64,000 bases of DNA from Vogesella urethralis (GTDB lineage Bacteria > Pseudomonadota > Gammaproteobacteria > Burkholderiales > Chromobacteriaceae), in assembly GCF_007644045.2 (NCBI RefSeq), contig NZ_VMDW02000087.1, forward strand, positions 62,001 through 126,000, in the 5' to 3' direction. The notes beneath the pieces are model-generated. The model worked only from the letters and a program-made list of their open reading frames with translations. It was not told the origin of the DNA and ran no database searches. The position numbers were made by a program, and so were the translations under genes. Positions within the stretch are counted from its first letter, which is position 1. Every line of letters begins with the position of its first letter. This document shows, piece by piece, positions 1 through 64,000 of the stretch.

Positions 1-611
1 AAGGCCAGCAGGTGCGGCAGGTGGCTGACGGTGGCAAACACCGCGTCGTGCTCGGCGGCGCTCATCTCGTAGACACGGGCACCACAAGCCTGCCACAACT
101 CGCGCACCAGCACGGCAGCGGCGGGGCGGGTTTCCGGCAGCGGCGTCACCACGATGCGGCGGTTGTCGTACAGGCCGTACTGCGCGGCGGCGGCACCGGA
201 CAGGTCGGAGCCGGCAATCGGGTGCGCCGGCACGCAGCCGGCCAGGTGCGCCGGCAGGTGGGCGCGCATCAGCGCCACCACGTCGCTCTTGGTACTGCCG
301 CCGTCGGTTACCACACAGTGCGGCGGCAGGTGCGGCGCGATGTCGGCAAACACGCGCCCCATCTGCCCCACCGGCGTGGCGACCAGCACCACGTCGGCGG
401 CGCGCACCGCTTCTGCGGCGCTGTGGCTGGCTTCGTCGATCACCCCCAGCTCGATGGCACGCTGCAGGTTGGCCGCAGAGCGCCCTACCCCGATCACTTT
501 CGCCACCCGGCCGGCGCGGCGCAAGGCCAGCGCAAACGAGCCGCCAATCAGGCCCACGCCTATCACTACCAGGGTCAATCTGCCCTCACCCGCCTGCATG
601 CTGTTGCCCAT
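1..611 (-). CDS. tyrA: Prephenate dehydrogenase (partial, 3' end outside window)
   Basis: This enzyme oxidatively decarboxylates prephenate to 4-hydroxyphenylpyruvate with NAD(P)+ in cytoplasmic tyrosine synthesis. The translated start shows a dinucleotide-binding loop, VVIGVGLIGGSFALAL, at about residues 15-30. It is followed by VGQMGRVFADIAPHLP, VTDGGSTKS and HPIAGSDLSGAAAA, all typical of TyrA. The reading frame is open to the window edge, so the C-terminal part is missing here. ATG codons at 611 and 599 are in frame; neither has a clear ribosome binding site, and 611 is the longer choice. The identity is firm; the exact start is not. Confidence 0.9.
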   Translation of the reverse strand, partial: MGNSMQAGEGRLTLVVIGVGLIGGSFALALRRAGRVAKVIGVGRSAANLQRAIELGVIDEASHSAAEAVRAADVVLVATPVGQMGRVFADIAPHLPPHCVVTDGGSTKSDVVALMRAHLPAHLAGCVPAHPIAGSDLSGAAAAQYGLYDNRRIVVTPLPETRPAAAVLVRELWQACGARVYEMSAAEHDAVFATVSHLPHLLA

Positions 612-668
612 TGCTGTGTGTCAGAGCCGTTATCATAACCGCATTCCCGCTTGACCAAGAGGTGCATC

Positions 669-1010: not shown

Positions 1011-2630
1011 ATGTACCAACAATTTACCATTCGACAAAAACTGCTTGCCGCATTCGGCGTCATTCTGTTGCTGATGGCCGTGATGGCCGCGTTGGTCATG
1101 CAAAAGCTCAATGTGATCGAACACGATCTGGAAGAGATCGTAGAAGACCTCAGCCCGGAAATGGTGCTGTCGGCCGAGCTGATGCAACTGAGCATGGACA
1201 ACGCATTGCTAGCCCATCGCCGCCACCTGCAGGAAAGCGCGGCGCTACAGCAGCAGATGCAGCAGCACCGCCAGCAAAGCCTGGCCAGCTTGAACAAGCT
1301 GCAGCAGCTGGAACATCAGGAAGCCGGCAAACAGCAATTGCAGCAGCTGCAAACCCTGCTGCAAGCCACACATGACAGCCAGCAACAGTTCGACCGCCTG
1401 CTGGCCAGCCAGGATGCCTCTGCCGGCCAATGGCTGCAAAGCCGGCTGGACCCGCAAACCGAAGCTCTGGTCGTGGCGCTGAAGCAGTTCATCGCCCTGC
1501 AGCGCAACGAGATGACACGGGCGGAGCAAGAAGCCATCAGCAGCTACCACGACGCAGAGTGGACGCAACTGACACTGGGCGCCTTGGCGCTGGCGCTGGG
1601 CACGCTGATCGGCTGGCTGTTTGCCGGCAAATTATCCGGCCACCTCGGCAGCATCGTACGGGAAACCCAGCGCATCGCCGCCGGCGACCTGCGACCACGG
1701 GCCAAACCGCTGCCGGCGGCCAACCGTGACGAAACCCTGCAACTGGCGCACGCCACCGATCGCATGCGGCAACAACTGGCCGACACCCTGGGCAGCATCC
1801 GGCAGTCGTCGTTTGCCGTCAGCGACGCCTCGCACGAGCTGTCCGGCATGTCGGAACAAGTGGCCGTGAGCGTGCAACGCCAGGCCGAAGCCACCAGCGA
1901 AGCCAGCGCCACGCTGGAGGAGCTTACCGTCAGCATCAATCATGTTTCGGATAACGCCGGCGACGCCGCCCGCCAGTCGCAGCAGGCGGGTGAACAGGCC
2001 GAACAAGGCGCTGCCGCCGTACAGGCATCGCAACAGCTGGTGCGCCAGGTTGGCCGCAGCGTGCAGCAGATCGCCAGCGCACTGGGCGAACTGACGCGCG
2101 AGGTGCAGGAAATCGACCGCATCGTCACCGTCATCCGCGAGGTGGCCGACCAGACCAACCTGCTGGCCTTGAACGCCAGCATCGAAGCCGCCCGCGCCGG
2201 TGAAGCCGGCCGCGGCTTTGCCGTGGTGGCCGACGAAGTACGCAAGCTGGCCGAGCGCACCGCCACCGCCACCGGCGACATCACCGGCATGATCGGCCGC
2301 ATCCGTCAGGGCGTAAACGACGTGGAACACCAGATGGGCAGCAGCGAGCAACAAATGGCGCAGGCCGACGAGGCCACCCACGATACCGGCCACACCATCG
2401 AAGCGGCACGGCAGTACAGCCGCGAAGCCGGCAGTTCGGTAGCCGCCATCAGCGAGGCGCTGGGCGAGCAGCGCGACGCCAGCCAGCTGCTGGCACGCAG
2501 CATGGAACAGGTGGCGCAAATGGCCGAGGAAAACAGCGCCACCGTGGAAGAGCTGGCCACCACCTCCAGCCAGCTCAGCGAGCTGGCCGACAGCATGCAG
2601 CAGATGGTGGCGCGCTTTCAGCTGGCCTAG
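1011..2630 (+). CDS. Methyl-accepting chemotaxis protein (four-helix-bundle-like sensor)
   Basis: Inner-membrane chemoreceptor of 539 residues. Transmembrane helices lie at about 11-31 and 186-206. They flank a Gln/Leu-rich, all-helical periplasmic region of about 150 residues that looks like a 4HB-type sensor. A HAMP region follows, then the kinase-control hairpin with the hallmark [18 protein letters not shown] and [18 protein letters not shown] segments around residues 375-415. The ligand cannot be told from sequence. There is no C-terminal CheR-docking pentapeptide. GGGAGGTG before the ATG is a strong ribosome binding site. No che genes are adjacent, so this is an orphan receptor working with a chemotaxis system encoded elsewhere. 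Confidence 0.95.
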
Positions 2631-3464: not shown

Positions 3465-3913
3465 GGCAAGTCCTTGGCGAGGCAAATGGATTCGCTGCGG
3501 CCAACATAGTGGCCATAAGGCGAGATCTCGCGGTAGCCGTGGCCCAGATAGAACTGCACCGCGCGCTGGTTGACGCGGCGGGTGGAAAGCCACACGGCGC
3601 GGTAGCCCAGCCGCTGCGCGTGCTGCTCCAGCGCCGCCAGCAACGCGGCGCCCAGGCCCAGGCTGCCGGGTGCGGCGTACATGCGCTTCAGCTCGGCCAC
3701 GCCGGGCTGCAGCGGGCGCAAGGCACCGCAACCTTGCGCCACCCCGTCGCCATTGCAGGCCAGCAAGAACACCGCGCCGTCGCCACGGACGTCGTCGGCG
3801 TCAAACGAGGCTTGCCCGCTGTTGCCGGTGAGCGCGGCCAAGGTGTCAGACAGCGCGGCCTGCATGGCGACGGCCTGCGGGTGGGCGGGATCGACAGCGG
3901 TAAAGGTATGCAT
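3458..3913 (-). CDS. GNAT family N-acetyltransferase
   Basis: A 151-residue single-domain acetyltransferase of the GNAT fold. The acetyl-CoA-binding region is read from LKRMYAAPGSLGLGAALLAALEQHAQ (about 94-119), followed by the VWLSTRRVNQRAVQFYLGHGYRE segment typical of motif B. The substrate is unknown. It sits between pabB and pabC and overlaps pabC by seven bases, so it is expressed with p-aminobenzoate synthesis; whether it acts on that pathway is not shown. GGAGCG upstream of the ATG at 3913 is a usable ribosome binding site. Confidence 0.88.
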   Translation of the reverse strand: MHTFTAVDPAHPQAVAMQAALSDTLAALTGNSGQASFDADDVRGDGAVFLLACNGDGVAQGCGALRPLQPGVAELKRMYAAPGSLGLGAALLAALEQHAQRLGYRAVWLSTRRVNQRAVQFYLGHGYREISPYGHYVGRSESICLAKDLPC

Positions 3914-3936: not shown

Positions 3937-5235
3937 TCAGGCTTGCTCGACGCCCAGCGCGCGCAGCAGGCCACGGGCCTTGTGGCGGGTTTCCTGCAGT
4001 TCGCGTTCCGGGTCGGAGTCGGCCACGATGCCGCCGCCGGCGCGGAAGCGCAGCTGCTGGCCTTGCTGCATGAAGGTACGGATCAGGATGTTCACGTCCA
4101 GCGTGCCGTCGCGGTTGAGGTAGCCCAGGCTGCCGGTGTAGGCACGGCGGGCGCTGTTTTCCAGCTCGCGGATGATCTGCATGGTGCGCACCTTGGGGCA
4201 GCCGGTAATGGTGCCGCCGGGGAACAGCGCACGGAATACTTCTACGGTATCCACGCCGTCACGGATGCGGCCGCGCACGTTGGATTCGATATGGTGCACG
4301 TAGGCGTAGCTGGCCACCGCCATCAGCTCGTTCACCTCCACGCTACCGGGCTGGCAGATGCGGCCCAGGTCGTTGCGTTCGAGGTCGATCAGCATCACGT
4401 GCTCGGCGCGTTCCTTGATGCTGCTGATCAGGCGCTGCTTCAGCGCGGCGTCTTCGGCGGCGTCGGGCGAGCGCGGGTGGGTGCCGGCAATCGGGCGGGT
4501 ATCCACCCAGCCGTCGTGCACGCGCACCAAGCGCTCCGGCGACGAGCTGACGATGTAGGCATCGCCCAGGTCGGCCAGCGCCGAGAACGGCGCCGGGTTG
4601 GCACGGCGCAGCGCGGCAAACAGGTCTACCGGGCGTACGCTGTCGTGCAGCGTGGCACGCCAGCCGCGCGAGATGTTCACCTGGAACACGTCGCCTTCGT
4701 AGATGTAATCCTTCAGCCGCACCACGGCGTCGGTGTACCAGTGCGGCGGGTCTTCTTCCAGCGCCTGCAGCTGTACCGGGTTGGCCGCAAACGCAGGCAC
4801 TGTTTGCAGCGCGGCTTTCAGCTCGGCCAGTTGGCCAGCGGTTTCCGCCATCAGCCAGCAGCGGCCGCTGGCGCGTTCCAGCTGGATGGCGGCCGGAATG
4901 CGGCACAGCGCGGCCAACGGAAAGCTGTCCGGGATAGCGGCCGGCACGCTGGGTTCAAACTCGGACAACAGGTCGTAGCCCAGGTAGACAAACCAGCCGC
5001 CACTGAACGGCAGGCCGTGCGGGTTGGCCACCGCCGCCTCGCGCGGCAGCGCACGTACCGCCTGCAGGAACGCCGCGCCCTCGCCTTCGCCGTAAACGTG
5101 GCGCTGGCCGGGCAGGGCCATCAGGATGTCCCAGCCGATATCGCCGGACGACTGCATCAGGTAAGGGAAACGGGCGCGATCGGCGGCGTGCAAGGCCAGC
5201 AGGTCGGGGGTGGAAGCGAGCAGTTCGTAATGCAT
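3937..5235 (-). CDS. pabB: Aminodeoxychorismate synthase component I
   Basis: Chorismate-utilising enzyme that aminates chorismate to 4-amino-4-deoxychorismate, normally with the PabA glutaminase, which is not in this window. The 432-residue product has the anthranilate synthase component I fold: an N-terminal domain with FSGGWFVYLGYDLLSEFE, then VFQVNISR, SPERLVRV, PIAGTHPR, ERNDLGRIC and FPGGTITGCPKVRTM. The covalent-lysine position of E. coli PabB (PIKGT) is alanine here (PIAGT), as in TrpE and one class of PabB. The pabC neighbour favours PabB over TrpE. I chose the ATG at 5235 (MHYELLA) because the longer frame to 5313 runs through the fabF terminator. Confidence 0.9.
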   Translation of the reverse strand: MHYELLASTPDLLALHAADRARFPYLMQSSGDIGWDILMALPGQRHVYGEGEGAAFLQAVRALPREAAVANPHGLPFSGGWFVYLGYDLLSEFEPSVPAAIPDSFPLAALCRIPAAIQLERASGRCWLMAETAGQLAELKAALQTVPAFAANPVQLQALEEDPPHWYTDAVVRLKDYIYEGDVFQVNISRGWRATLHDSVRPVDLFAALRRANPAPFSALADLGDAYIVSSSPERLVRVHDGWVDTRPIAGTHPRSPDAAEDAALKQRLISSIKERAEHVMLIDLERNDLGRICQPGSVEVNELMAVASYAYVHHIESNVRGRIRDGVDTVEVFRALFPGGTITGCPKVRTMQIIRELENSARRAYTGSLGYLNRDGTLDVNILIRTFMQQGQQLRFRAGGGIVADSDPERELQETRHKARGLLRALGVEQA

Positions 5236-7000: not shown

Positions 7001-7193
7001 TTGTTTAAACCCTTTACCTTTCTGTGCTCGGGATAACAAAACCCCGCCATTCTACAAAAAAAAACCGGTGTAGCCTACCTGAGCCGGCGATTCTTGCCGA
7101 ATTACCTTGCCGGCAGGCCCTTTGTTACGTTTTATGGCGCCGGAAATGTTGCATCCGGCACCAATGCGGCCAACCCGAAGGCCGGCCTTGTCA

Positions 7194-7945: not shown

Positions 7946-7965
7946 GTTGGCCGCATGCGGCCAAC
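7946..7965. repeat. Perfect 20-bp palindrome: inverted pair of the dispersed 9-mer
   Basis: GTTGGCCGCA is followed directly by its reverse complement TGCGGCCAAC, between fabD and fabG. The arms are the word repeated throughout the window. Transcribed, it would form a hairpin without a U tract, so it could stabilise mRNA or mildly terminate. Inverted uptake-sequence pairs near gene ends are known in Neisseria. Confidence 0.85.
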
Positions 7966-9075: not shown

Positions 9076-10035
9076 TCAGAAGCGCAGCAGCAGCGCGCCC
9101 CAGGCAAAACCGCCGCCAATACCTTCCATCAGCACGGTCTGGCCGCGCTGGATCTTGCCCTGGCGCACGGCATGATCGAACGCCAGCGGAATGGACGCCG
9201 CCGAGGTATTGCCCTGCTCCGGCAAGGTGACGATGACTTTGTCCATCGACAGTTGCAGGTGCTTGGCGGTGGCTTCGATGATGCGGATATTGGCCTGGTG
9301 CGGCACCAGCCAGTCCACGCTGTCTTGCGGCACGCCGGCCTCGGCCAGGGTTTTCTCCGCAATGTCGGAGAGCGCCTTCACCGCAAATTTGAACACCGCC
9401 GGGCCATCCATGTGCAGGTAAGGCGTACCTTCCACCTCGCCGTCGATGATTTGCGCTTCGGTCTTCAGGATGTCGCGGTAGCGGCCGTCTGCGGCCAACT
9501 TGGCGTGCAGGATGCCCGGCTCGTCGCTGGCGCCCACCACCACGGCGCCGGCGCCATCGCCAAACAGCACGCAGGTGCGGCGATCATCCCAGTCCAGCAG
9601 GCGGCTCATCACTTCGGCGCCCACCACCAGCACGTTTTTGGCCATGCCGCTCTTGATGTAACCGTTGGCGGTAGCCAGCGCGTACACGAAGCCGGCGCAA
9701 ACGGCCTGCACGTCAAACGCGGGCACGCCCGGAATGCCCAGCTTTTCCTGCAGGATGCTGGCGGTACTGGGGAATACCATATCGGGCGTGGTGGTGGCCA
9801 GGATGATCAGGTCGATATCGCTGGCTTGCAAGCCGGCGCTTTCCAGCGCGCGCTGCGCGGCGAGGTAGGCCAGATCGCTGGTTTTCTGATTATCTGCTGC
9901 GATGTGGCGCGCACGAATGCCAGTGCGAGAGACAATCCACTCGTCACTGGTTTCGATGCGCTCGGCCAGCATCGCATTCGTCATGATGGTGTCCGGCAGA
10001 TAGCTGCCGGTACCGAGAATGCGTGAATAGGTCAT
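9076..10035 (-). CDS. fabH: Beta-ketoacyl-ACP synthase III
   Basis: Starts fatty acid synthesis by condensing acetyl-CoA with malonyl-ACP. The 319-residue protein has the full catalytic set: Cys113 in QAVCAGF, His246 in VPHQAN and Asn276 in EQGNTSA. The C-terminal [15 protein letters not shown] closes the fold as usual. The ATG at 10035 lies nine bases after the plsX stop, so plsX and fabH are cotranscribed. One copy of the dispersed 9-mer lies inside the gene at 9491. Confidence 0.97.
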
Positions 10036-12551: not shown

Positions 12552-13252
12552 TGGCCGGCACCCTGTACCTGATCCCCACCCCGCTGGGCGATGGCGACAC
12601 GCCGTGGCTGCCGGAAGGCGAACGCGCCCGCGTCACCCACCTCACCCACTTTGTGGTGGAAGCCGAAAAAACCGCGCGCAAACACCTGAAGCAGCTGGGC
12701 GTCACTACACCCATCCGTGAACTGGTGATGCACACACTAAACGAGCACACCAAGCCGGCCGACGTGGCCGCGCTGCTGGCACCGTTGGCCGCAGGGCAAG
12801 ACCTGGGCCTGGTATCCGAAGCCGGCTGCCCGGCGGTCGCCGACCCCGGCGCCCAGCTGGTGGCGCTGGCCCACGAAAAAGGCTACCGCGTCGAGCCGCT
12901 GATCGGCCCGTCGTCCATCCTGCTGGCGATGATGGCCAGTGGCGCCAACGGCCAGTGCTTTGCCTTCCACGGTTACCTGCCGGTGGATGCCGCCGAGCGT
13001 GCCAAGGCCATCAAGGCACTGGAGCTGCGCTCGAAGCAAAACAACGAAACGCAGCTGTTCATCGAAACGCCGTACCGCAACAACGCGCTGCTGCAACAGC
13101 TGCGCGAAACACTGGCCGGCAGCACCCGCCTGTGCGTAGCGGCAGACCTGACCGCACCGACGCAAACCATCGTCAGCCGTCTGGTAAAAGACTGGCCGCG
13201 CGAAGCGCCGGACTTTCACAAGCGCCCGGCCATCTTCGTTATTCACGCCTGA
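12551..13252 (+). CDS. SAM-dependent methyltransferase (RsmI-like tetrapyrrole methylase fold)
   Basis: A 233-residue protein of the tetrapyrrole methylase superfamily, related to RsmI, which 2'-O-methylates C1402 of 16S rRNA. It shows LYLIPTPLGDGD at the N-terminus, GLVSEAGCPAVADPGAQLV around residues 90-110, LIGPSSILLAMMASG and FIETPYRN. It is about 50 residues shorter than RsmI and lacks its C-terminal extension. The N-terminal PTPLGDGD also differs from PTPIGNLGD, so it is probably a paralogue with an unassigned target. It is coupled to maf by a one-base overlap. Confidence 0.85.
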   Translation: MAGTLYLIPTPLGDGDTPWLPEGERARVTHLTHFVVEAEKTARKHLKQLGVTTPIRELVMHTLNEHTKPADVAALLAPLAAGQDLGLVSEAGCPAVADPGAQLVALAHEKGYRVEPLIGPSSILLAMMASGANGQCFAFHGYLPVDAAERAKAIKALELRSKQNNETQLFIETPYRNNALLQQLRETLAGSTRLCVAADLTAPTQTIVSRLVKDWPREAPDFHKRPAIFVIHA

Positions 13253-17968: not shown

Positions 17969-18058
<90 letters not shown>

Positions 18059-18102: not shown

Positions 18103-18291
18103 TGTACTGCGGCCAACCCGGCGCTTCTCCTGCACGCCCGTCCCCCGCCCCCTTGGCAAACTCACGCACGGCGGGTTGCCACCAGCCGCAGCCCAGGCAG
18201 CCGACTCCGGCAAGCAGCGCACGGCTATCCCCGGTTGACACGCTCCGGCAGAGCTGCCACCCTTCCCGCCTCGTTTTTTAGGGGAACCACC

Positions 18292-40441: not shown

Positions 40442-40469
40442 GCAAGGTTGGCCGCAGGCGGCCAACCTT
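40442..40469. repeat. 28-base inverted repeat made from two copies of the dispersed 9-mer
   Basis: CAAGGTTGGCCGC (40442-40454), AG, then GCGGCCAACCTTG (40457-40469): a perfect 13-bp inverted repeat between kdpC and kdpD. Its core is the window-wide word in both orientations. It would fold into a strong hairpin in mRNA, without a T run. Confidence 0.88.
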
Positions 40470-45309: not shown

Positions 45310-45366
45310 CGCCGCGGCCAACGTTTATCGATAATCCGGCCTTTCCTTCCGTTGCCGGAGCCCCGC

Positions 45367-50933: not shown

Positions 50934-51731
50934 ATGACTTACCTTGCCTTGTTACCCTGGCACCGCCGCTTGGCCTGGCTGCTGCTGGGGCTGATCGTCC
51001 TGCTGGCCGTGGCCGGACCCTGGCTATGGCCGGACCCGGCACGCCAGGACCTGATGCAGTTTCTGGCCAGCCCCAGCCTGGCCGAGCCGCTGGGCCGCGA
51101 CCAGCTGGGCCGCAGCGTAATGGCGCGCGTGGCCAGCGCCACCCGGCTGTCGCTGGGGTTGGCCGCGCTGTGCGTGCTGAGCGCCGCGCTGCTGGGTTGC
51201 CTGCTGGGCGTGCTGTCCGCCTGGCGCGGCGGCATCACCGACACCGTACTGCGCGGCGTGGCCGACGGCGTGCTGGCGCTGCCGGGGCTGCTGATCGTGC
51301 TGATTTTTTCCGCCATGGCCAAGGGCGGCTTTGTCACCCTGTACCTGGGGCTGGCGCTGGCGCAATGGGTGGAATACTTCCGCATGACACGGGCGCGCAG
51401 CCGGCTGGTACTGGCCAGCCAGCACGTGGAAGCCTCGCGCCTGCTGGGCTTTGGCCCCGGGTATATCGTGCGTCGCCACCTGTGGCCGGAGCTGGCGCCC
51501 ATGCTGCTAACCATGGCCAGCTTCGGCATGGCCACCGCCATCCTGGCGCTGTCCACGCTGGGCTATGTCGGCGTCGGCCTGCAACCGCCGGCGGCCGAGC
51601 TGGGCCTGATGATGACTGAGGCCTTGCCGCATTACAGCGAAGCACCGCGGCTGGTGCTGGCCCCGGTGGCCGTGCTGGCGCTGACCTTGGCCGCACTGGT
51701 GTTGCTGCGCCCGCTGGAGGTGAAACGATGA
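50934..51731 (+). CDS. ABC transporter permease (DppC/NikC family)
   Basis: Second permease, 265 residues with about five to six helices. It shows PLGRDQLGRSVMARVASATRLSLGLA near the N-terminus, the EAA loop ASQHVEASRLLGFGPGYIVRRHLWPELAPML, and STLGYVGVGLQPPAAELGLMM. It abuts the DppB-like gene and overlaps the ATPase gene by four bases. Confidence 0.92.
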   Translation: MTYLALLPWHRRLAWLLLGLIVLLAVAGPWLWPDPARQDLMQFLASPSLAEPLGRDQLGRSVMARVASATRLSLGLAALCVLSAALLGCLLGVLSAWRGGITDTVLRGVADGVLALPGLLIVLIFSAMAKGGFVTLYLGLALAQWVEYFRMTRARSRLVLASQHVEASRLLGFGPGYIVRRHLWPELAPMLLTMASFGMATAILALSTLGYVGVGLQPPAAELGLMMTEALPHYSEAPRLVLAPVAVLALTLAALVLLRPLEVKR

Positions 51732-53101
51732 CCAGCCTGCATCTGGACGGCGTGGCCGTCTACCAGCAACAACACTGCCTGCTGCAGCCGCTGGACCTCA
51801 CCCTGTACCCAGGCGAGGCACTGACCGTGCTGGGCGAAAGCGGCTCCGGCAAATCGCTGCTGGCACACGCCATCATGGGCACCCTGCCCGCCGGCCTGCG
51901 CGCCAGTGGCCAGCTGCGCCAGGGTAGCCAACTGTGGCCGCTGGCCGATGCGGCCAACCGCCGCGCACTGTGGGGCGAACAGCTGGCCATCCTGCCGCAA
52001 GAGCCGGCCACCGCGCTGGACCCCACCATGCGGGTACTGCCGCAGGTGGCGGAAGGCTGGCGTGGCGAAGCCGGCAGCGCCCAGGCCGAGGCGCGCGGCC
52101 AACTCGCGCGCCTCGGCCTGCAAGCGGCGCAGCGCCATTACCCGCACCAGCTGTCGGGTGGCATGGCGCAGCGGGTGGCGTTTGCTGCCGCCACGCTAGG
52201 CGGCGCCGGCTTGCTGCTGGCCGACGAACCCAGCAAGGGGCTGGACAACCGCGCCTGCGCCACGCTGGCGCAGCTGCTGCAACAGCATCTGGCCGACGGT
52301 CGCTGCCTGCTGACCATCACCCACGACATCACGCTTGCACGCACGCTGGGCGGCCAGGTGCTGGTGATGCGCGGTGGCGAGGTGGTGGAGCAAGGCCCGG
52401 CCAGCCGGGTATTGCAGCAGCCGCAGCACCCGTACACGCAACAGCTGTTGGCCGCCGAGCCGCAAGCGTGGCCTGCTATCGCACACCCGGCGCCGGGCGA
52501 CTGGCTGCTGCAGGGCCGCAGCCTCAGCAAGGCCTACGGCAGCCAAACGCTGTTTCGCGACGTGGACATCGATATTGCCGCCGGCGAGCGCGTGGCCCTG
52601 CTGGCCGACAGCGGTGCCGGCAAAAGCACGCTGGGCAACATCCTGCTGGGGCTGACCCGTGCCGACCACGGCAGCGTGCGCTACCGCGACGGCTTGCCGC
52701 GCACCGCGTGGCAAAAGCTGTACCAGGACCCGGTGCAGGCGTTTGCGCCGCACGTGACGCTGCACACCGCGCTGCACGACGTGCTGAAGCACTGCGGCCA
52801 ACCTGTCGCCAACCTGGAAACGCTGCTGCACCGGCTGCGCTTGTCGCCCGGCCTGCTGGCGCGCAAGCCGTCGCAGGTGTCGGGCGGCGAGCTGCAACGG
52901 CTGGCGCTGATCCGCACCCTGCTGCTGCAGCCGGCGCTGCTGTTTGCCGACGAACCCACTTCGCGGCTGGACCCGCTCACCCAGCAGGACACCGTGCACT
53001 GCCTGCTGGACGAACTGGCGCGCATCGGCTGCGCGCTGCTGCTGGTCACCCACGACCACGCGCTGGCCAGCCGCGCCACCGCACGCCAGCTGCGGCTGTA
53101 A
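51728..53101 (+). CDS. Fused double ABC ATPase (DppD-DppF type)
   Basis: One 457-residue polypeptide carrying two nucleotide-binding domains that are often separate proteins. Domain 1 (about 1-235) has Walker A GESGSGKS, signature LSGGMAQR and Walker B LLLADEPSKGLD. Domain 2 (about 258-457) has DSGAGKSTLGNILLG, VSGGELQRLALIRTLLLQPALLFADEPTSRLD. Both look competent, although the first Walker B ends DEPS. It powers the permease pair in front. A weak terminator follows about 20 bases after the stop. Confidence 0.92.
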   Translation: MTSLHLDGVAVYQQQHCLLQPLDLTLYPGEALTVLGESGSGKSLLAHAIMGTLPAGLRASGQLRQGSQLWPLADAANRRALWGEQLAILPQEPATALDPTMRVLPQVAEGWRGEAGSAQAEARGQLARLGLQAAQRHYPHQLSGGMAQRVAFAAATLGGAGLLLADEPSKGLDNRACATLAQLLQQHLADGRCLLTITHDITLARTLGGQVLVMRGGEVVEQGPASRVLQQPQHPYTQQLLAAEPQAWPAIAHPAPGDWLLQGRSLSKAYGSQTLFRDVDIDIAAGERVALLADSGAGKSTLGNILLGLTRADHGSVRYRDGLPRTAWQKLYQDPVQAFAPHVTLHTALHDVLKHCGQPVANLETLLHRLRLSPGLLARKPSQVSGGELQRLALIRTLLLQPALLFADEPTSRLDPLTQQDTVHCLLDELARIGCALLLVTHDHALASRATARQLRL

Positions 53102-55289: not shown

Positions 55290-55311
55290 CCGCCTGCGGC
55301 CAACCTTGCCG

Positions 55312-56193
55312 CTAGGCGCCGCCCTCGTCTTCCAGCCAGGCGCAGAATTCGGCGCATAGCGGGTCTTCCGCCAGCGCCAGCGGTACCACCCACGAATAAC
55401 CGCGAACCCGCACCGCCGGGCCGGGCAGCGCAATCTGCAGTTTGCCGCTGGCCAGCAGCTCGTCTATCACCGGCCTGGGCCCCAGCGTGATGCCCATGCC
55501 GTCCACCGCCGCCTGCAACGCCAGATAGTAGTGATCGAAATGCTGGTTGGCCGCAGGCTGCAAACCGGGTACACCGGCAGCCGCCAGCCAGCGCTCCCAC
55601 GCCACCGGCCGTGTTTCCGAGTGCAGCAGCGTGTGCTGTGCCAGCGCGGCAGCATCCGGCAACGGCTGGCGTGCCAGCAAGGCCGGGCTGGCCACCGGCA
55701 GCTCGTGCTCCGTCAGGAAGATGTTGGACACAAAACCTGGCCAGTGGTCGTTGCCACGACGGATGGCGATGTCGAAATCGGCGTTCTGGTTGTTGATGAT
55801 GGCGTCTGAGGTGGCCAGCCGCAGCTCTACTTCCGGGTGGCGGCGCTGGAACTGCGTCAGCCGGGGCAGCAGCCAGTGCATGGCCAGCGTGGGGGCGGCG
55901 TTGATGCGCAGCAGCCTGGGTTTCTGGCTTGTGAGTTTTTCGGTGGCATTGGCAATGCTGTCGAACGCGGCTTGCACCACCGGCAAGTACTGGCGGCCGG
56001 CGTCGGTCAGCCGCAGGCGGCGGCCAAGCCGTTCGAACAGTGCCACGCCCAGCCATTCCTCCAGCAGCGCCACCTGCCGGCTGACGGCACTATGGGTAAC
56101 GTGCAGCTGGGCGGCGGCAGCGGTCAGGCTTTGGTAGCGGGCGGCCATTTCAAAAGCGCGCAGCGCGTTGAGCGGCGGGAGCTTGCGGTTCAT
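55312..56193 (-). CDS. LysR family regulator (GcvA-like)
   Basis: A 293-residue LysR regulator. The DNA-binding region is LNALRAFEMAARYQSLTAAAAQLHVTHSAVSRQVALLEEWLG (about 8-49). The effector domain has LLRINAAPTLAMHWLLPRLTQFQRRHPEVELRL and FDIAIRRGNDHWPG, typical of the GcvA/AmpR group. The ATG at 56193 (MNRKLPPL) is chosen over 56214. It is divergent from the chrA pair, which it may control. A dispersed 9-mer lies inside the gene at 55546. Confidence 0.9.
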   Translation of the reverse strand: MNRKLPPLNALRAFEMAARYQSLTAAAAQLHVTHSAVSRQVALLEEWLGVALFERLGRRLRLTDAGRQYLPVVQAAFDSIANATEKLTSQKPRLLRINAAPTLAMHWLLPRLTQFQRRHPEVELRLATSDAIINNQNADFDIAIRRGNDHWPGFVSNIFLTEHELPVASPALLARQPLPDAAALAQHTLLHSETRPVAWERWLAAAGVPGLQPAANQHFDHYYLALQAAVDGMGITLGPRPVIDELLASGKLQIALPGPAVRVRGYSWVVPLALAEDPLCAEFCAWLEDEGGA

Positions 56194-57437: not shown

Positions 57438-58217
57438 ATGAAAAAGCCGCTTGCCCTGTTGCCCCTGCTTGTCGCCCTGGTTTACGCCGCCGCCGATCAC
57501 TTCCAGACGCCTGCCGCCCCTGCTGCGGCCAACCCGGTACCCAGCGGCCCGCAAGTGGCCACCCGTTTTGCCGATTGCCCGCAGCTGTTCTACCGCAACA
57601 CGCCCCCGGCCATCGCCGCCAGCCTGCAGCACGCCCGTGTGCGCGAGCTGTGCTTTGACGATTTTGCCGTGCTGCACGACGGCGACACCCGCACTCCGCT
57701 GTTTGCCGCCGAAAAGCTGTCGGCGCGCAGCCTGGCCGACGCCGACGAAAAGCGCACCGACCGCTTCTACGAGGAGGCGCGTCTGCGCAGCAGCGAGCGC
57801 GCCACGCTGGCCGACTACCGTGGCAGCGGCTACGACCGCGGCCATATGGCGGCAGCGGCACAACGCACCACGCCCGAGGCGATGGCGCAAAGCTTCAGCC
57901 TGGCCAATATGGTGCCGCAGGTGCCGGAAAATAACCGTGGCGTGTGGGCACGCGCGGTAGAAGCAGCCACCCGCAAGTACGTGCAACGTACCCGCGGCGA
58001 GGTGTACGTGTTTACCGGCCCCTACTTCGACCCGCAGCAAGCGCCGCGCTACGCCGGCAAGGTGCGGGTGCCGGACGCGCTGTACAAGCTGGTGTACGAC
58101 CCGGCTGCCGGCAAATCATGGGTGTACTGGACCGCCAACGCCGACGTGGCCAAGCCGCAAATGCTGGCCTACGACGAGCTGGTACGCCGCACCGGCATCC
58201 GCTTCCTGCCGCAGTAA
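57438..58217 (+). CDS. Secreted DNA/RNA non-specific endonuclease (NUC1 family)
   Basis: A 259-residue nuclease of the Serratia-nuclease/EndoG (beta-beta-alpha metal) fold. A signal peptide (about 1-18, MKKPLALLPLLVALVYAA) sends it to the periplasm or outside. The catalytic motif is YDRGHMAAAA (His in DRGH), with the metal asparagine in SFSLANMVPQVPENNRGVW. The C-terminal core includes VYVFTGPYF and VPDALYKLVYDP. It is a stand-alone gene; TATAGAAT about 30 bases upstream may be its -10. Likely roles are nutrient scavenging from DNA or processing of extracellular DNA. Confidence 0.9.
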   Translation: MKKPLALLPLLVALVYAAADHFQTPAAPAAANPVPSGPQVATRFADCPQLFYRNTPPAIAASLQHARVRELCFDDFAVLHDGDTRTPLFAAEKLSARSLADADEKRTDRFYEEARLRSSERATLADYRGSGYDRGHMAAAAQRTTPEAMAQSFSLANMVPQVPENNRGVWARAVEAATRKYVQRTRGEVYVFTGPYFDPQQAPRYAGKVRVPDALYKLVYDPAAGKSWVYWTANADVAKPQMLAYDELVRRTGIRFLPQ

Positions 58218-58336
58218 GCCGCGCCCAGGCGCCAGAGTTGGCCGCGACACGCCATTTTGTCCACGCTTTGTACTGGACAAAATAGGCAGCCGTTTCTAAG
58301 ATCAGGGCAGTCACTCCTGCTGCCCGGTCTGCCATC

Positions 58337-59164: not shown

Positions 59165-60473
59165 CAACGCCAAATCCCGCCCGGTACCGGTTGGCCGCCT
59201 GTCGCGGCTGGCGCGCCTTGGCAGCCTGGCAGGCGGCATTGCCGGCGGCATGGTGGCCGAAGGCGCGCGCCGGCTGGCCAGCGGCCAACGCCCGCAATGG
59301 CAAGATCTGCTGCTGACGCCGGCCAACGCCGCCCGCTTTGCCCACCAGCTGTCGCAAATGCGCGGCGCGGCGATGAAGATGGGCCAGTTGCTGTCGATGG
59401 ACGCCGGCGACCTGGTGCCGCCCGCGCTGCGCGACATCCTGGCCACGCTGCGCGAAGACGCGCACACCATGCCGCTAAGCCAGCTGGCTGACGTGCTGGA
59501 GCAGGAATGGGGCGACGACTGGCAAACGCGCTTCAAACGCTTTTCCTTCCAGCCGGTGGCCGCTGCCTCCATCGGCCAGGTGCACCGCGCCGAGCTGGCC
59601 AGCGGCGAAACGCTGGCCATCAAGGTGCAGTACCCCGGCGTGGCGCGCAGCATCGACAGCGATGTAGATAATGTGGCCAGCCTGCTACGGCTGAGCGGCC
59701 TGCTGCCGCCGGGTTTCGACCTCGACACCCTGCTGACCGAAGCCAAGCGCCAGCTGCACCAGGAGGCCGACTACCAGCAGGAAGCGGCCAACCTGCAGCA
59801 CTACCGCCAGCTGCTGGCCGGTAACGCCGACCTGTTGCTGCCGCAAGCCGTACCCGAGCTGTGCACGCCGCGCATCCTGGCGATGGATTTCATCGACAGC
59901 GTGCCGATCACCACGCTGCAACAGGCGCCACAAGCCGAGCGCGACCGCATCGCCACCCTGCTGTTCGACCTGCTGCTGCGCGAGATCTTCGACTTTGCCT
60001 GCCTGCAAAGCGACCCCAACTTTGCCAACTACCGCTACCAGCCGGCCAGCGGCCAGCTGGTGCTGCTGGATTTCGGCGCCACGCGCCGGCTGGGTGCCGA
60101 CAACGTGCAGCACTACCGCCGCCTGCTGTTGGCCGCACAGGCGCAAGACCGGCAGGCGCTGGGCGAGGCGGCCACCGCATTGGGCTACTTTCCGCAGCAG
60201 GTGTCGGCCCGCCATTACGACGAGGTGATGGCCATTTTCCTGCTGGCCTGCGAGCCGCTGCGCCACACCGGCGCTTACGACTTCGGCAGCAGTACGCTAG
60301 CGGCCCGCATGCGCGACGCCGGCTGGGCCATGCGCCACGAGCGCGACGCCTGGCACACGCCGCCGGTAGACGCGCTATTCCTGCACCGCAAGGTGGCCGG
60401 GCTGTACCTGTTGGCCGCACGGTTACAAGCACGAGTGGATATTGCCGCGCTGTTTGCCCGCTACGCTGGCTGA
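59157..60473 (+). CDS. AarF/UbiB/ABC1-type atypical kinase
   Basis: A 438-residue member of the UbiB/COQ8 family. The signature KxGQ motif is in RGAAMKMGQLLSMDAGDLVP (about 70-89), followed by PVAAASIGQVHRAEL (Ala-rich loop in place of a P-loop), the lysine in LAIKVQYPGV, EADYQQEAAN, and a catalytic loop ending LQSDPNFANYRY with metal Asp in LLDFGATRRLG. It lacks the C-terminal membrane helices of UbiB, so it is probably a soluble paralogue. Roles in quinone or lipid homeostasis are inferred from the family. It overlaps the preceding small gene by eight bases. Confidence 0.87.
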   Translation: MTDNAKSRPVPVGRLSRLARLGSLAGGIAGGMVAEGARRLASGQRPQWQDLLLTPANAARFAHQLSQMRGAAMKMGQLLSMDAGDLVPPALRDILATLREDAHTMPLSQLADVLEQEWGDDWQTRFKRFSFQPVAAASIGQVHRAELASGETLAIKVQYPGVARSIDSDVDNVASLLRLSGLLPPGFDLDTLLTEAKRQLHQEADYQQEAANLQHYRQLLAGNADLLLPQAVPELCTPRILAMDFIDSVPITTLQQAPQAERDRIATLLFDLLLREIFDFACLQSDPNFANYRYQPASGQLVLLDFGATRRLGADNVQHYRRLLLAAQAQDRQALGEAATALGYFPQQVSARHYDEVMAIFLLACEPLRHTGAYDFGSSTLAARMRDAGWAMRHERDAWHTPPVDALFLHRKVAGLYLLAARLQARVDIAALFARYAG

Positions 60474-60989: not shown

Positions 60990-62708
60990 CTACAGCACCA
61001 GGCTGCGGCCAACCCTGGGCGCCGGCGCCAACGCTGCGCCCTCGTCATGGCGCGCCAGCGCCACCACCTCGTCAAACAACACGTGCAGCACCGGCTGGTG
61101 CGTCACCGCCAGTACCGTGCTGCCCGGCAAGGCCTGGCGCAGCGCGCGCAGGCAGTGCAAGGCCGAGGCTTCGTCCAGCTGGTTGGTGGCTTCGTCCAGA
61201 ATCAGCAGCGACGGTTGCTGCAGCATGGCGCGCAGCAAGGACACGCGTTGCTGTTCGCCGCCGGACAACACCCGCCCCCAATCTGCTACCTCGTGCAGAC
61301 GGCCGGCCAAGGCCGCCAGCCCCACCGCGGCCAGGCCGTCGCGCAGTTCCGGCTCCGGGTACGGTTGCAGCGCCGGGTAGCTCAGCAGCTGCGCCAGGCT
61401 GCTACGGAACAGATACGGCTGCTGCGGCAGGATCAGCACGTCGTGCTGCAGGCTGTGGCTGCCCTGGTAAAACGGCCAGATGCCGGCCAAGGTGCGGATC
61501 AACGTGGATTTGCCCAGCCCGCTGGGGCCGTCCAGGCGCACCCACTGCGCGGCAGCAACGCAATGGCTGAGCGGCTGCAGCATCGGGCGGCCATCCGGGT
61601 AGCACACTTGCAGCTGCTGCAGCTGCAAGCCGGCGGCGGGTGTGGTGGTGGTGGCCGCCGGCGGTGCCAGCTGGCGCGCGCTGTCCAGGCTGCTGACAAA
61701 CTGGTGCAAACGCTGCACTGACGCCGACCAGCGCGCCAGCTCGTCGTAGGCACGTACAAACCAGCTCAGCGCATTGCTCACCTGCATAAAAGCGGAGTTC
61801 ACCTGCATCAGCCCGCCCAGCGTCAGCGACTTGGACAAAAACGCCGGCAGCGCGGCAAACAGCGGCACCATGCTGTTGATGTAGTTGTAGCTGGTGCTGA
61901 ACAGGCCCAGGTTGCGCTCGCGCTGCATCATGCGGTACCAGTTGGCCGCCACGCCGGCAAAGTCGTCGGCCACGTGGCGCCGCGCCCACGGCTCGCCGCC
62001 GTACAGCGCAATCTGCTCGGCGTGTTCGCGCTGGTGGCGCAGCGTGCTGCGCAGGTCGGCCTCGCGCTGTTGCTGCTGCACGTTCAACCGCGTCAGTTCA
62101 TTGCCGATCCAGTGCGTCAGCAGCGCACCGAACAGCGCGTAACCCAGCGCAAACCACAGCAGGTAGCCGGGCACCACCAGTTGGCCGTCGCCCCACGGCA
62201 GCGTCAGGTTGCTGGACAGCTGCCACAGGATGAACACGAACGACAGCAGCTTGGCCACCGCCGACACCAGCGAGCGCAACAGGTCGATGCTGTCGGTCAC
62301 CAGCAGGTTCACGTCTTCGGCAATGCGCTGGTCGGGGTTGTCCGGCTCGCCGTGCAGGCCCAGGCGGTAAAAGGCGCGCTCGGCCAGCCAGGCGTCTACC
62401 AGCTGGCGCGTCATCGCTTCGCGCCAGCGCAGGATCAGCAGCTTGCGCACCCAGTCAAGCGCCACCGCCACCACCACGGCGGCGCTGATCAGCAGGCAGT
62501 AACGGCCCAGCAGCGGGTAGATGCGCGGTGTATCCAGCGCGCCCAGCGCGTCGTAGAAGTCCTTGTTCCAGAAATTGAGCCAGACATTCATCTGCACCAG
62601 GATCAGGCCCATGCCGAGGATGGCCAGCAACAGCAGCCAGGCCAGCCAGTTGTGGCGCGAGCGCCAGTACGGGGCGGCCAGTTGCCAGAATTGACGCAGG
62701 GTATTCAA
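60990..62708 (-). CDS. YddA/SbmA-type ABC transporter (permease-ATPase fusion)
   Basis: A 572-residue half-transporter with an SbmA/BacA-like membrane domain. The N-terminal part has about six helices and segments VWLNFWNKDFYDALGALD, WREAMTRQLVDAWLAERAFYRLGLHGEPDNPDQRIAEDV and LFSTSYNYINSMVPLFAALPAFLSKSLTLGGLMQ. The ATPase has Walker A DGPSGLGKSTLIRTLAG, signature LSGGEQQRVSLLRAMLQQP and Walker B LLILDEATNQLD. The start is a TTG at 62708 with GGAGA upstream, overlapping the stop of the M16 protease gene. Pairing with an M16 protease matches the pqqL-yddA and fusC-fusD arrangement. Confidence 0.88.
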   Translation of the reverse strand: MNTLRQFWQLAAPYWRSRHNWLAWLLLLAILGMGLILVQMNVWLNFWNKDFYDALGALDTPRIYPLLGRYCLLISAAVVVAVALDWVRKLLILRWREAMTRQLVDAWLAERAFYRLGLHGEPDNPDQRIAEDVNLLVTDSIDLLRSLVSAVAKLLSFVFILWQLSSNLTLPWGDGQLVVPGYLLWFALGYALFGALLTHWIGNELTRLNVQQQQREADLRSTLRHQREHAEQIALYGGEPWARRHVADDFAGVAANWYRMMQRERNLGLFSTSYNYINSMVPLFAALPAFLSKSLTLGGLMQVNSAFMQVSNALSWFVRAYDELARWSASVQRLHQFVSSLDSARQLAPPAATTTTPAAGLQLQQLQVCYPDGRPMLQPLSHCVAAAQWVRLDGPSGLGKSTLIRTLAGIWPFYQGSHSLQHDVLILPQQPYLFRSSLAQLLSYPALQPYPEPELRDGLAAVGLAALAGRLHEVADWGRVLSGGEQQRVSLLRAMLQQPSLLILDEATNQLDEASALHCLRALRQALPGSTVLAVTHQPVLHVLFDEVVALARHDEGAALAPAPRVGRSLVL

Positions 62709-64000
62709 GGTTGGGTCTCCATCAGTTTGGGGTCGGGCAGGGTCAGCAACAGGGCCAGGTTGCGGTCCAGCTGCAGCCCGCTGGCCAGCGCGCGCACGCT
62801 GGCCGCGTCCAGCGTGGCGGCCAGGTCGGCGCTACGGCTCAGGTAACGGGTGTCGCCGTCGTGGCGGATGCTCAGTTGCAGGCGGTTGAAGCGGCTGTCG
62901 TCGTCCGCCTGGCGGGCGGCGGCTTGTTGCCGGCCATACTCCAGCGCCGTTTGCAGATTGGCGTCGTCCAGCACCGCTGCCGGCTGCGCCAGGATGGCGC
63001 GTACGCGCAGCAGCAGCTCGTCCAGCCGTGCCGGGTCGGTACTGAACTGCCATTCGCTTTCCAGACGGTCGGTATCGGGGTTGAGCTTCAGGCTGAACTG
63101 CACGCTGTACACGCCGGCCGCTTCTTCGCGCAGCGAACGGCGCATGGCGGCGTGCAGCGCCCGCCCCAGCGTGGCCACCTGCAGCGCACGCTCGCCCTGC
63201 CACGCCATCGGCACGCTGCCGTAGGCCTGCACCCGCGCTACCGGTTCGCGCGCGATGGCGTGCCGGCTTTCAAAAAAGCCCGGCCGCGGCAACAGCGCGC
63301 TGGCGGTGACGGCGTTTGCGCGGCGCGGTATCGGCGCCAGGTAACGGTTGGCCGCGGCCAGCACGTCGGCCTCGCGGGCGTCGCCGCTGAGGTAGTGGGT
63401 AACCGGGCGCGCCACCAGCTGCTGCCACAGCGCCAGCAAGGCAGCCGGGGTCTGGCGGCGCAGCTCGGCCGGGGTCGGTGCCTGGTCGGCGGCGGTCAGC
63501 GGGTAGCGCAGCTTGCCCAGCGCGGCGTAGGCCTGGCTGGCGGCGCTGCTGTCGCGGCCCAGGCTGTTTTGCTGCAGGCGCAGCAGCGCCGGGTCGATGC
63601 CGGCGTGCAACTGGCGCGTCTGGTAGTAGTGCCACAACGTGGCCAGCTTGTCGGCGGGAACGCTGGCGCTTTGCGTCAGGCGCTGGGTGGTTTGCGCTTG
63701 CGACAGCCCCAGGCTCTGGTGTTGCTCCCAGCGGCGCAGCTGGGCGGCTTGCCAGCCGGCCGGGCCGCTGGCGGCGGCCAACTGGGCGGCCAGTTGCCAC
63801 TGCCAGCCAGTCGCGCCCGGCAGCCGGTAGCCGGCGCCCGATTCCGCCACGTAGCGCAGCTTGCCGTCCTGGTTGGCGCGGTACTGCCACACCAGGCGGT
63901 CGCCGTTGGCCAACTGCCACATCGCCACTTGCTGCGCCTCGTCGCGCCACAGCAGCGTGCTGCTGGCGGCCGGCAGCGCCGGCGGCAGTTCGGGCAGCGG
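62705..64000 (-). CDS. M16 family zinc protease (PqqL-like), partial C-terminal part
   Basis: About 430 residues of a larger insulinase-family protease; the N-terminus with the HxxEH site lies beyond the window. The visible part contains an M16 C-terminal domain: PVTHYLSGDAREADVLAAANRYLAPIPR, ALHAAMRRSLREEAAGVYSVQFSLKLNPDTDRLESEWQF and a final EYGRQQAAARQADDDSRF...LLLTLPDPKLMETQP. The end overlaps the YddA-type transporter gene by four bases, so the two are translationally coupled. In E. coli and Pectobacterium such proteases process proteins taken up by a TonB receptor for iron. Confidence 0.85.
   Translation of the reverse strand, partial: PLPELPPALPAASSTLLWRDEAQQVAMWQLANGDRLVWQYRANQDGKLRYVAESGAGYRLPGATGWQWQLAAQLAAASGPAGWQAAQLRRWEQHQSLGLSQAQTTQRLTQSASVPADKLATLWHYYQTRQLHAGIDPALLRLQQNSLGRDSSAASQAYAALGKLRYPLTAADQAPTPAELRRQTPAALLALWQQLVARPVTHYLSGDAREADVLAAANRYLAPIPRRANAVTASALLPRPGFFESRHAIAREPVARVQAYGSVPMAWQGERALQVATLGRALHAAMRRSLREEAAGVYSVQFSLKLNPDTDRLESEWQFSTDPARLDELLLRVRAILAQPAAVLDDANLQTALEYGRQQAAARQADDDSRFNRLQLSIRHDGDTRYLSRSADLAATLDAASVRALASGLQLDRNLALLLTLPDPKLMETQP

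Follow-up and report, generated by a model that had tools for sequence, protein, structure and literature searches.

The closest described counterparts of the repeat reported here are the DNA uptake sequences (DUS) of the Neisseriaceae. Laribacter, Lutiella, Pseudogulbenkiania and two Chromobacterium genomes, which we take to belong today to the Chromobacteriaceae, have been surveyed for such sequences. The sections of Frye et al. (2013; PMC3630211) drawn on here distinguish eight neisserial dialects, all sharing CTG, describe DUS only with this CTG core in the Neisseriaceae, and report no obvious DUS in the genomes just named. The present repeat was found in a 64,000-nucleotide stretch of Vogesella urethralis (Chromobacteriaceae), referred to below as the window, and an earlier note had proposed it as a candidate DNA uptake sequence with a new core. 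Our analysis supports this proposal: the excess is genus-wide, is not driven by codon use and comes without leading-strand bias. Judging from sequence comparisons, GCGGCCAAC, in full about TGCGGCCAACCTT, is very probably the Vogesella DUS and one of at least three chromobacterial dialects with the core CGGCCAAC. The best reading would be a second DUS family, outside the Neisseriaceae and with a new core.

The window was found to contain exactly 68 matches to GCGGCCAAC, 40 on the plus and 28 on the minus strand, spanning 468 to 63782 (Table 1), as the earlier note had estimated. In 100 dinucleotide-shuffled versions of the window the mean count was 2.7 and the largest 7. When all 9-mers with at least 8 occurrences were ranked by z-score under an order-5 Markov model, GCGGCCAAC came first (68 observed, 14.5 expected), and the leading 10-mer under the same model was TGCGGCCAAC (32 observed, 2.9 expected). 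The claim that copies are often extended holds for 12 of the 68, which read CTGCGGCCAACC where 0.4 were expected, and a copy previously placed at 60411 is real and starts at 60410. Called genes hold 54 of the 68 copies. CTG occurs in the 5' flank of 18 of the 68 copies, and in that of 66 of the 268 TGCGGCCAA sites of genome G001. Both inverted pairs that had been noticed are present in the window and are listed in the table.

Table 1. Copies of the uptake-like word GCGGCCAAC and inverted word pairs in the window.
Feature	Position	Strand	Remark
GCGGCCAAC	468..476	-	exact match
GCGGCCAAC	1716..1724	+	exact match
GCGGCCAAC	2049..2057	-	exact match
GCGGCCAAC	3497..3505	+	exact match
GCGGCCAAC	4780..4788	-	exact match
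GCGGCCAAC	4910..4918	+	exact match
GCGGCCAAC	7166..7174	+	exact match
inverted word pair	7946..7965		7946-7954 minus, 7957-7965 plus, 2-base gap
GCGGCCAAC	9491..9499	+	exact match
GCGGCCAAC	12784..12792	-	exact match
GCGGCCAAC	14002..14010	-	exact match
GCGGCCAAC	14655..14663	-	exact match
GCGGCCAAC	14881..14889	+	exact match
GCGGCCAAC	15474..15482	-	exact match
GCGGCCAAC	16022..16030	+	exact match
GCGGCCAAC	16166..16174	+	exact match
GCGGCCAAC	16987..16995	+	exact match
GCGGCCAAC	17641..17649	+	exact match
GCGGCCAAC	18109..18117	+	exact match
GCGGCCAAC	19082..19090	+	exact match
GCGGCCAAC	19618..19626	-	exact match
GCGGCCAAC	23750..23758	-	exact match
GCGGCCAAC	25169..25177	+	exact match
GCGGCCAAC	25217..25225	-	exact match
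GCGGCCAAC	27306..27314	+	exact match
GCGGCCAAC	28067..28075	-	exact match
GCGGCCAAC	29425..29433	+	exact match
GCGGCCAAC	29449..29457	+	exact match
GCGGCCAAC	30227..30235	-	exact match
GCGGCCAAC	32417..32425	+	exact match
GCGGCCAAC	33299..33307	+	exact match
GCGGCCAAC	34490..34498	+	exact match
GCGGCCAAC	35789..35797	+	exact match
GCGGCCAAC	38441..38449	+	exact match
GCGGCCAAC	39270..39278	+	exact match
GCGGCCAAC	39784..39792	-	exact match
GCGGCCAAC	39830..39838	+	exact match
inverted word pair	40447..40466		40447-40455 minus, 40458-40466 plus, 2-base gap
GCGGCCAAC	41655..41663	-	exact match
GCGGCCAAC	43583..43591	-	exact match
GCGGCCAAC	44049..44057	+	exact match
GCGGCCAAC	44886..44894	+	exact match
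GCGGCCAAC	45314..45322	+	exact match
GCGGCCAAC	47673..47681	+	exact match
GCGGCCAAC	47866..47874	-	exact match
GCGGCCAAC	47922..47930	+	exact match
GCGGCCAAC	48744..48752	+	exact match
GCGGCCAAC	49763..49771	-	exact match
GCGGCCAAC	51158..51166	-	exact match
GCGGCCAAC	51950..51958	+	exact match
GCGGCCAAC	52095..52103	+	exact match
GCGGCCAAC	52447..52455	-	exact match
GCGGCCAAC	52794..52802	+	exact match
GCGGCCAAC	55296..55304	+	exact match
GCGGCCAAC	55546..55554	-	exact match
GCGGCCAAC	57525..57533	+	exact match
GCGGCCAAC	58237..58245	-	exact match
GCGGCCAAC	59190..59198	-	exact match
GCGGCCAAC	59281..59289	+	exact match
GCGGCCAAC	59784..59792	+	exact match
GCGGCCAAC	60128..60136	-	exact match
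GCGGCCAAC	60410..60418	-	exact match
GCGGCCAAC	61005..61013	+	exact match
GCGGCCAAC	61941..61949	-	exact match
GCGGCCAAC	63347..63355	-	exact match
GCGGCCAAC	63774..63782	+	exact match

The excess is not limited to the window. The genome of origin carries 3,461 copies of GCGGCCAAC (1,716 plus, 1,745 minus) compared with 86 of the reversed word (44 and 42), and all 13 Vogesella genomes contain 2,312–3,490 copies each. When the rest of the family was compared with Vogesella using the 9-mer and the pattern YKCGGCCAAC, 48 genomes from nine other genera were found to have 57–313 copies of GCGGCCAAC, and none reached the Vogesella level. The word combines what characterizes the DUS class, namely strong over-representation on both strands, genome-wide and beyond codon use. 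Alignment with congeners showed 58 of 120 words kept, a sum over nine loci in which a single window word can be counted up to nine times, versus 26–37% of random 9-mers with seven G+C; word sites show modest conservation with turnover.

Related words occur in neighboring genera. The dialects with the common core CGGCCAAC are TGCGGCCAAC in Vogesella, CTCGGCCAAC in the Crenobacter-like group g4 (1,940 and 1,590 copies), and TTCGGCCAAC in Pseudogulbenkiania and three other genera (183–2,168 copies in eight genomes, from g2, g3, g5, g10 and one from g6). In each of the six dialect genomes sampled, the genome's own dialect word was the leading 10-mer by de novo counting. The new core is borne out in that CGGCCAAC does not contain the CTG found in the neisserial words and recurs in the dialects of six other groups (g2, g3, g4, g5, g10 and one g6 genome). 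Dialects track phylogenetic groups except in g6, where one of ten genomes (G017) has the word and the other nine are without it. De novo counting found no comparable word in the word-less genomes G030, G035 and G028. The same procedure returned an unrelated repeat in G019.

A predicted minor pilin of the type of neisserial ComP, the receptor for uptake sequences, is encoded in the word-bearing genomes, and word-less genomes carry divergent homologues too. In sequence searches run in both directions the candidates matched ComP better than they matched other pilins. The pilin of the genome of origin has as its first PDB match a ComP, 2nba (6e-7 over 37 residues), the top three PDB matches of the Pseudogulbenkiania candidate are three ComP entries (best 4.5e-13), and a control search with a paralogue had PilE as its first match and gave no ComP hit up to an E-value of 1. 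With a profile built from ten neisserial ComPs, the candidate outscored every other pilin recovered in each of the 13 word-bearing genomes tested, and all 23 candidates scored higher with this profile than with one built from the neisserial paralogues; with profile A2, the best match was a ComP-like pilin in 11 of 11 f44 genomes. The pilin of the genome of origin also passes the threshold of the Pfam ComP_DUS family (PF16732; 35.8 bits, cut-off 27.3). That family is unspecific: a PilE paralogue reaches 80.5 bits and homologues from word-less genomes reach 47 bits, both above our candidate, so the relation to ComP rests on the profile comparisons, the PDB hits and a signature residue. PF11773, tried as a ComP family, is actually ComGE, and nothing passed its cut-off.

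A ComP-like pilin, which the earlier note had suggested looking for, is present and tracks the word in part, but word-bearing and word-less genomes are not told apart by the neisserial profile. A Lys or Arg after [FY] and before a WPxLP stretch was found in 22 of 23 word-bearing genomes and in none of 27 readable word-less homologues, three of which (G026, G049 and G058; 41–44 bits) may not be orthologues. The exception, G017, bears the word and has Thr instead of Lys. The motif was looked for in 29 of 38 word-less genomes and was readable in all but two of them, the sample leaving aside G019, G020, G028, G033, G036, G037, G039, G050 and G057; in G038 a different pilin outscores the chosen one with the neisserial profile. 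With a Vogesella profile the 23 word-bearing genomes took the first ranks of 61 (87.7 vs 84.6 bits at the boundary), whereas with the neisserial ComP profile the two groups overlapped (word-bearing 60.5–114.3 bits, word-less 33.1–84.6), so the clean ranking rests on the Vogesella-based profile and partly reflects descent. On a quick unrooted tree with long branches, built without 14 genomes (weak hits, near-duplicates) and without neisserial rows shorter than 115 residues or scoring less than 50 bits, the word label needs only about three changes. The top-scoring sequences of G224 and G147 lie apart from the ten ComPs, and the tree places the chromobacterial pilins no more clearly with ComP than with the neisserial paralogues. 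For neisserial ComP, DUS binding is ascribed to an electropositive stripe. Net charge of the pilin was rejected as a marker, there being no clear difference between groups: the candidates are not consistently basic (−4 to +6), and one comparison of 30 rows was made without counting G000 and G010. As regards natural competence, pilins are present and the ComEC domain was detected in 59 of 61 genomes, G000 included, but not in two of the 13 Vogesella genomes, G002 (330 contigs) and G008 (88% complete). Since word-less genera have full-length, divergent pilin homologues and ComEC as well, the presence of these genes does not predict the word.

The most serious alternative accepts a DUS and assigns its reading to another pilin, either the GspH-like partner in Vogesella or a second pilin beside PilA, with the ComP homologue merely a minor pilus subunit. 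Genomes encode several pilins (15 were recovered in G000), in G000, G001 and G004 a gene for a GspH-like pilin adjoins the ComP-like gene, ComP-like homologues persist in word-less genera, and the candidates' cysteine pattern is unlike that of neisserial ComP (two cysteines in the soluble part of 21 of 23 candidates and three in two, whereas 11 of the 12 neisserial top hits have four). The distribution of the ComP-like signature residue runs against this arrangement, which we regard as rather unlikely.

Far less probable is a Chi-like recombination hotspot, read by RecBCD/AddAB in the Chromobacteriaceae. Chi sites are abundant asymmetric words, as here, and the present word is likewise short and lies mostly within called genes of the window. 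Chi sites are strand-biased, however, and the Vogesella word lacks strand polarity: 140 copies are leading and 155 lagging when strand is assigned by GC skew, so the leading-strand bias that the earlier note considered is absent, and the genome-wide counts are equally balanced. In addition, the word is denser outside called genes of G001 than within them (1.12 vs 0.62 per kb), although such intergenic densities include missed genes because the simple gene caller spans 78–88% of bases; inverted pairs are enriched (24 inverted vs 2 direct within 40 bases, 16 of the 24 not inside one called gene); and close genera differ by dialects and losses. A chromosome-organization motif of the KOPS, matS or Noc type would fit dispersal throughout all 13 Vogesella genomes, but it is made highly improbable by the missing polarity, the spread over 20 stretches around the G001 chromosome (6 to 21 copies in each) and the dialect differences among close genera.

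Codon choice also follows the word. As the earlier note had argued, the TTG leucine codon is preferred within it: at TTG/CTG-GCC-GC in called window genes, TTG was used in 18 of 23 cases after G, where the word is complete, and in 4 of 16 otherwise, and 400 kb of a congener gave 44 of 96 versus 4 of 55. Synonymous-codon shuffling of the window left a 6.5-fold excess of the 9-mer and a 15-fold excess of the 10-mer, so codon and dipeptide use, which the earlier note had allowed for, does not account for the word. It is also sharp, with 259 copies of TGCGGCCAAC in 400 kb and 21 of its best one-mismatch neighbor. Least credible of all is a by-product of codon or dipeptide use or a copy-paste element (REP/MITE), for although word-less relatives show a weak 9-mer excess (12 vs 8.1 in synonymous shuffles of G035, a ratio of 1.5; up to 313 copies in G058), G001 exceeds its synonymous shuffles 8.6-fold in the 9-mer and 31-fold in the 10-mer, and base preference stops about three bases past the word, further flanks having none of note.

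For the word as a DUS, we propose that in natural transformation free double-stranded DNA would be bound at the word by a ComP-related minor pilin in the type IV pilus, that pilus retraction would draw it into the periplasm, and that ComEC would pass one strand to the cytoplasm. The word would spread through the genome because word-bearing DNA would be preferentially taken up and recombined, a form of uptake-driven biased gene conversion that would leave copies in either orientation, inside genes and outside them, with codon choice paying the cost. We lean, with some reserve, towards a ComP–DUS system older than the divergence of Neisseriaceae and Chromobacteriaceae, in which the word was wholly rewritten between the families (CTG in one core, CGGCCAAC in the other) while the receptor stayed orthologous, giving at least three dialects within Chromobacteriaceae, with losses in g7, g8, g9 and most of g6 and the signature residue gone from the word-less homologues read. 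The word variants and a matching pilus protein in neighboring genera suggest a second, previously unread "password" for the uptake of self-DNA. A second dialect family with related pilins in word-bearing and word-less relatives is a natural experiment on how pilins read DNA, and informs how uptake codes change and how environmental bacteria partition DNA exchange. Vogesella is culturable and thus a testable host.

The USS of the Pasteurellaceae is an unrelated word in a distant host group. It resembles the present word, as far as our source describes it, in being a short genome-wide word for self-recognition in uptake, and the portion of PMC12616744 used here gives its receptor, ComN, only as predicted. 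For the neisserial system, the positive control GCCGTCTGAA reached 1,863–4,285 copies in 8 of 11 f44 genomes and 2–14 copies in 13 Chromobacteriaceae genomes of the same draw. That the words of the two families share a sequence origin is unsupported, since their longest shared run of 5 bases was reached in 2,166 of 20,000 shuffles. The role of the disulfides of neisserial ComP is treated in PMC12061091, at least in the part consulted; that protein has two disulfides and four cysteines, whereas the chromobacterial candidates have two or three cysteines. The Vogesella word further differs from neisserial DUS in its family and in its core CGGCCAAC, CTG arising only in the 5' flank of some copies. 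Like them it is 10–12 bases long and similarly abundant, lies on both strands, inside genes as well as between them, forms inverted pairs, varies in dialects along phylogenetic lines and is accompanied by a candidate pilin of the ComP type.

The window contains 68 copies of the 9-mer GCGGCCAAC, 40 on the + strand and 28 on the - strand, in agreement with the estimate in an earlier note, whereas 100 dinucleotide shuffles of the window gave a mean of 2.7 copies and a maximum of 7. Its z-score under an order-5 Markov model is the top value of all window 9-mers with at least 8 occurrences, and TGCGGCCAAC ranks first in the same way among the 10-mers. The word is also not limited to the window. The V. 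urethralis genome (4.03 Mb, 157 contigs) carries 3,461 copies (1,716 and 1,745 by strand; reversed-word control, 44 and 42), and when 101 whole genomes were counted, all 13 from Vogesella were found to be rich in it (2,312-3,490 copies each), with 57-313 copies in 48 genomes from nine further genera of Chromobacteriaceae and 2-187 in 40 genomes from other families. Among loci on contigs retrieved with a window protein, the nine nearest to the window (L039-L047, six of them named Vogesella; best-segment identity 83-97%) carry the word at 0.72-1.38 per kb, and the remaining 71 (L048-L118) at most 0.14.

Within genes, the DNA word itself is favored, as indicated by synonymous shuffling and by leucine codon choice. 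Called genes in 400 kb of a closed Vogesella genome (G001) contain 194 copies of GCGGCCAAC versus 22.4 after synonymous-codon shuffling (8.6-fold) and 162 copies of TGCGGCCAAC versus 5.3 (31-fold), so codon and dipeptide use does not explain the count. The corresponding values for window genes were 54 versus 8.3 and 23 versus 1.5, and those for a word-less relative (G035) 12 versus 8.1. The suspected preference for the TTG leucine codon was also borne out: where leucine (TTG or CTG) precedes GCC-GC, the window uses TTG in 18 of 23 cases if the base ahead of it makes the word complete and in 4 of 16 if it does not (44 of 96 and 4 of 55 in G001). In-gene orientation is about equal (98 sense and 96 antisense in G001; 25 and 29 in the window), and word density is higher outside than inside called genes (1.12 versus 0.62 per kb in G001; 1.71 versus 0.96 in the window). 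The motif is sharp, with 259 copies of TGCGGCCAAC in 400 kb and 21 of its most frequent one-mismatch neighbor. A weak preference for C-T-T continues 3' of the word. The first T of TGCGGCCAAC is looser in the window (32 of 68).

A Chi-like site or a chromosome-organization motif had been raised as alternatives. On the G001 chromosome, 140 copies are oriented like the G-rich (leading) strand and 155 in the opposite sense; there is no leading-strand bias. Among 363 words from G001 samples and the window, 24 inverted pairs but only 2 direct pairs lie within 40 bases of each other, and 16 of the 24 do not fall within a single called gene; both inverted pairs expected in the window were located. In lacking polarity and forming inverted pairs, the Vogesella word behaves as uptake sequences generally do and differs from Chi and from segregation motifs.

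Inverted word pairs and the sole tRNA gene found in the window
Feature	Position	Strand	Remark
Inverted word pair	7946-7965	both	2-base gap
tRNA-Ser (cga) gene	17969-18058		only tRNA gene found
Inverted word pair	40447-40466	both	2-base gap

The proposal of a new core holds across genera: the Vogesella word TGCGGCCAACCTT, the CTCGGCCAAC dialect of a Crenobacter-like genus (g4), and the TTCGGCCAAC dialect of Pseudogulbenkiania and other genera have CGGCCAAC in common and are told apart by the two bases preceding it. De novo counting returned CTCGGCCAAC as the top 10-mer of one g4 genome (G024). It is present 1,940 times there and 1,590 times in the g4 genome G015, with at most 165 copies in any of the remaining 59 family genomes; a named Crenobacter luteus locus has 13 copies in 21 kb and a Crenobacter caeni locus one. 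The same kind of count put TTCGGCCAAC first among the 10-mers of G013, G014, G016, G017, and G021. Its copies number 1,104, 893, and 183 in genus g2, 2,168 and 579 in g3, 1,245 in g5, 1,851 in g10, and 1,368 in G017, the only g6 genome rich in it; no other genome of g6 (nine) or of g7, g8, and g9 (29 together) exceeds 62. Vogesella, g4, and the eight TTCGGCCAAC genomes are referred to as word-bearing (23 of 61 family genomes), the weakest being G029, which is 84% complete and has 183 copies against 11 of the control. Across the order (399 genomes, families numbered to f51), YKCGGCCAAC was found 1,304-3,107 times in the word-bearing Chromobacteriaceae drawn and at most 223 times elsewhere.

Several genomes showed individual features. 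In 200 kb of G017 (L359-L368), TTCGGCCAAC (65 copies) is accompanied by a second enriched word, TTCGGCAAAC (32 copies, against 2.3 expected); this genome may combine two dialects or have a receptor of relaxed specificity. The 579 TTCGGCCAAC copies in G023, versus 2,168 in its g3 congener G014, and the 92 and 85 copies of CTCGGCCAAC in G027 and G036 of g8, versus 15-67 in other word-less genomes, are possible decaying relics. G019 (L159-L168) carries a dispersed repeat around TAGGGTGCATTCGCGTAG, whose 9- and 10-mers each number 12-24 per 200 kb and which bears no relation to the uptake-like words.

Counts of the neisserial DNA uptake sequence (DUS) GCCGTCTGAA in family f44, which we took as Neisseriaceae because the word is abundant there, served as a positive control: 8 of 11 genomes have 1,863-4,285 copies and the remaining three 247, 4, and 2. 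Thirteen Chromobacteriaceae genomes from the same draw have 2-14. One f44 genome (G224, L391) encodes a ComP-like pilin with RYKKNSTTWPDLP but just two cysteines in its soluble part; GCCGTCTGAA and YKCGGCCAAC each occur 4 times in this genome, which may use another word.

The earlier note also called for a search for comP-like and competence genes. ComEC domains were detected in 59 of 61 genomes. A pilin N-terminus profile had 17 matches in the V. urethralis genome, and a candidate for the counterpart of ComP, the minor pilin that serves as neisserial DUS receptor, was found on contig C46 (L262), adjoining a GspH-like pilin gene. It exceeds the Pfam ComP_DUS cut-off, an unspecific measure given the 80.5 bits of a PilE paralogue from this genome and the 47 bits of two word-less homologues. 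The candidate's PDB matches began with 2nba (6e-7), followed by a geopilin chain and then the ComP entries 2m3k and 5hz7, with about 40 residues aligned. The PilE paralogue matched PilE structures, with no ComP among its PDB matches up to E = 1, and the first matches of the Pseudogulbenkiania homologue were the three ComP entries. A profile built from four Vogesella sequences (A1) ranked the 23 word-bearing genomes (244.8 to 87.7 bits) above all 38 word-less ones (at most 84.6). A signature of [FY] then Lys/Arg ahead of a WPxLP stretch occurs in 22 of the 23 (G017 has Thr) and in none of 27 readable homologues from the 29 word-less genomes examined (naive Fisher p 3e-13, computed on related genomes). 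On the 11 f44 genomes, chromobacterial profile A2 had a ComP-like pilin as top match every time, at least 22 bits over the next-best distinct pilin, and 10 of these 11 pilins have [FY]K. When the search was reversed with a profile built from ten neisserial ComPs, the candidate was the best pilin recovered in each of the 13 word-bearing genomes tested. Each of the 23 candidates also scores 9-33 bits lower when seven neisserial paralogues make up the profile. However, the neisserial ComP profile does not separate word-bearing from word-less genomes, because word-less homologues reach 84.6 bits, above most Vogesella. A quick tree places the chromobacterial sequences together in a single group, and the word label needs about three changes on this tree. 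Neisserial ComP has four cysteines while the candidates have two or three, and unlike ComP they show no consistent positive charge. The assignment of a receptor is less certain than the word itself.

The GspH-like pilin (L262:1747-2325) is encoded just before the ComP-like gene, with counterparts in L211, L213, and L222. Vogesella GspH-like pilins have a common C.AN[LF]K.NLD.QGC stretch, and the protein is a possible partner of the candidate receptor.

Frye et al. (2013; PMC3630211) describe eight DUS dialects, all with CTG, and report no obvious DUS in the genomes of Laribacter hongkongensis, Lutiella nitroferrum 2002, Pseudogulbenkiania sp. NH8B, and two Chromobacterium; TTCGGCCAAC may be among the over-represented 10-mers tabulated there. 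A 2025 paper (PMC12061091) still gives eight dialects and a conserved CTG core, and PMC11316581 treats Neisseriaceae dialects. Within the open-licence literature, we found no record of the chromobacterial word family and no paper on a Vogesella uptake sequence, papers linking Vogesella with natural transformation were off topic by their titles, and Frye et al. was the only match for uptake sequences in Pseudogulbenkiania; CGGCCAAC turned up in work on uptake sequences only inside a primer.

Abundance, dialects, and a ComP-related pilin support the word as a candidate uptake sequence with a new core. The chromobacterial words most likely constitute a separate DUS family, one that lies outside the Neisseriaceae, where DUS have been described. 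The proposed system is of the same kind as that of the Neisseriaceae, including a ComP-related receptor candidate, but it is built on the core CGGCCAAC where neisserial DUS have CTG.
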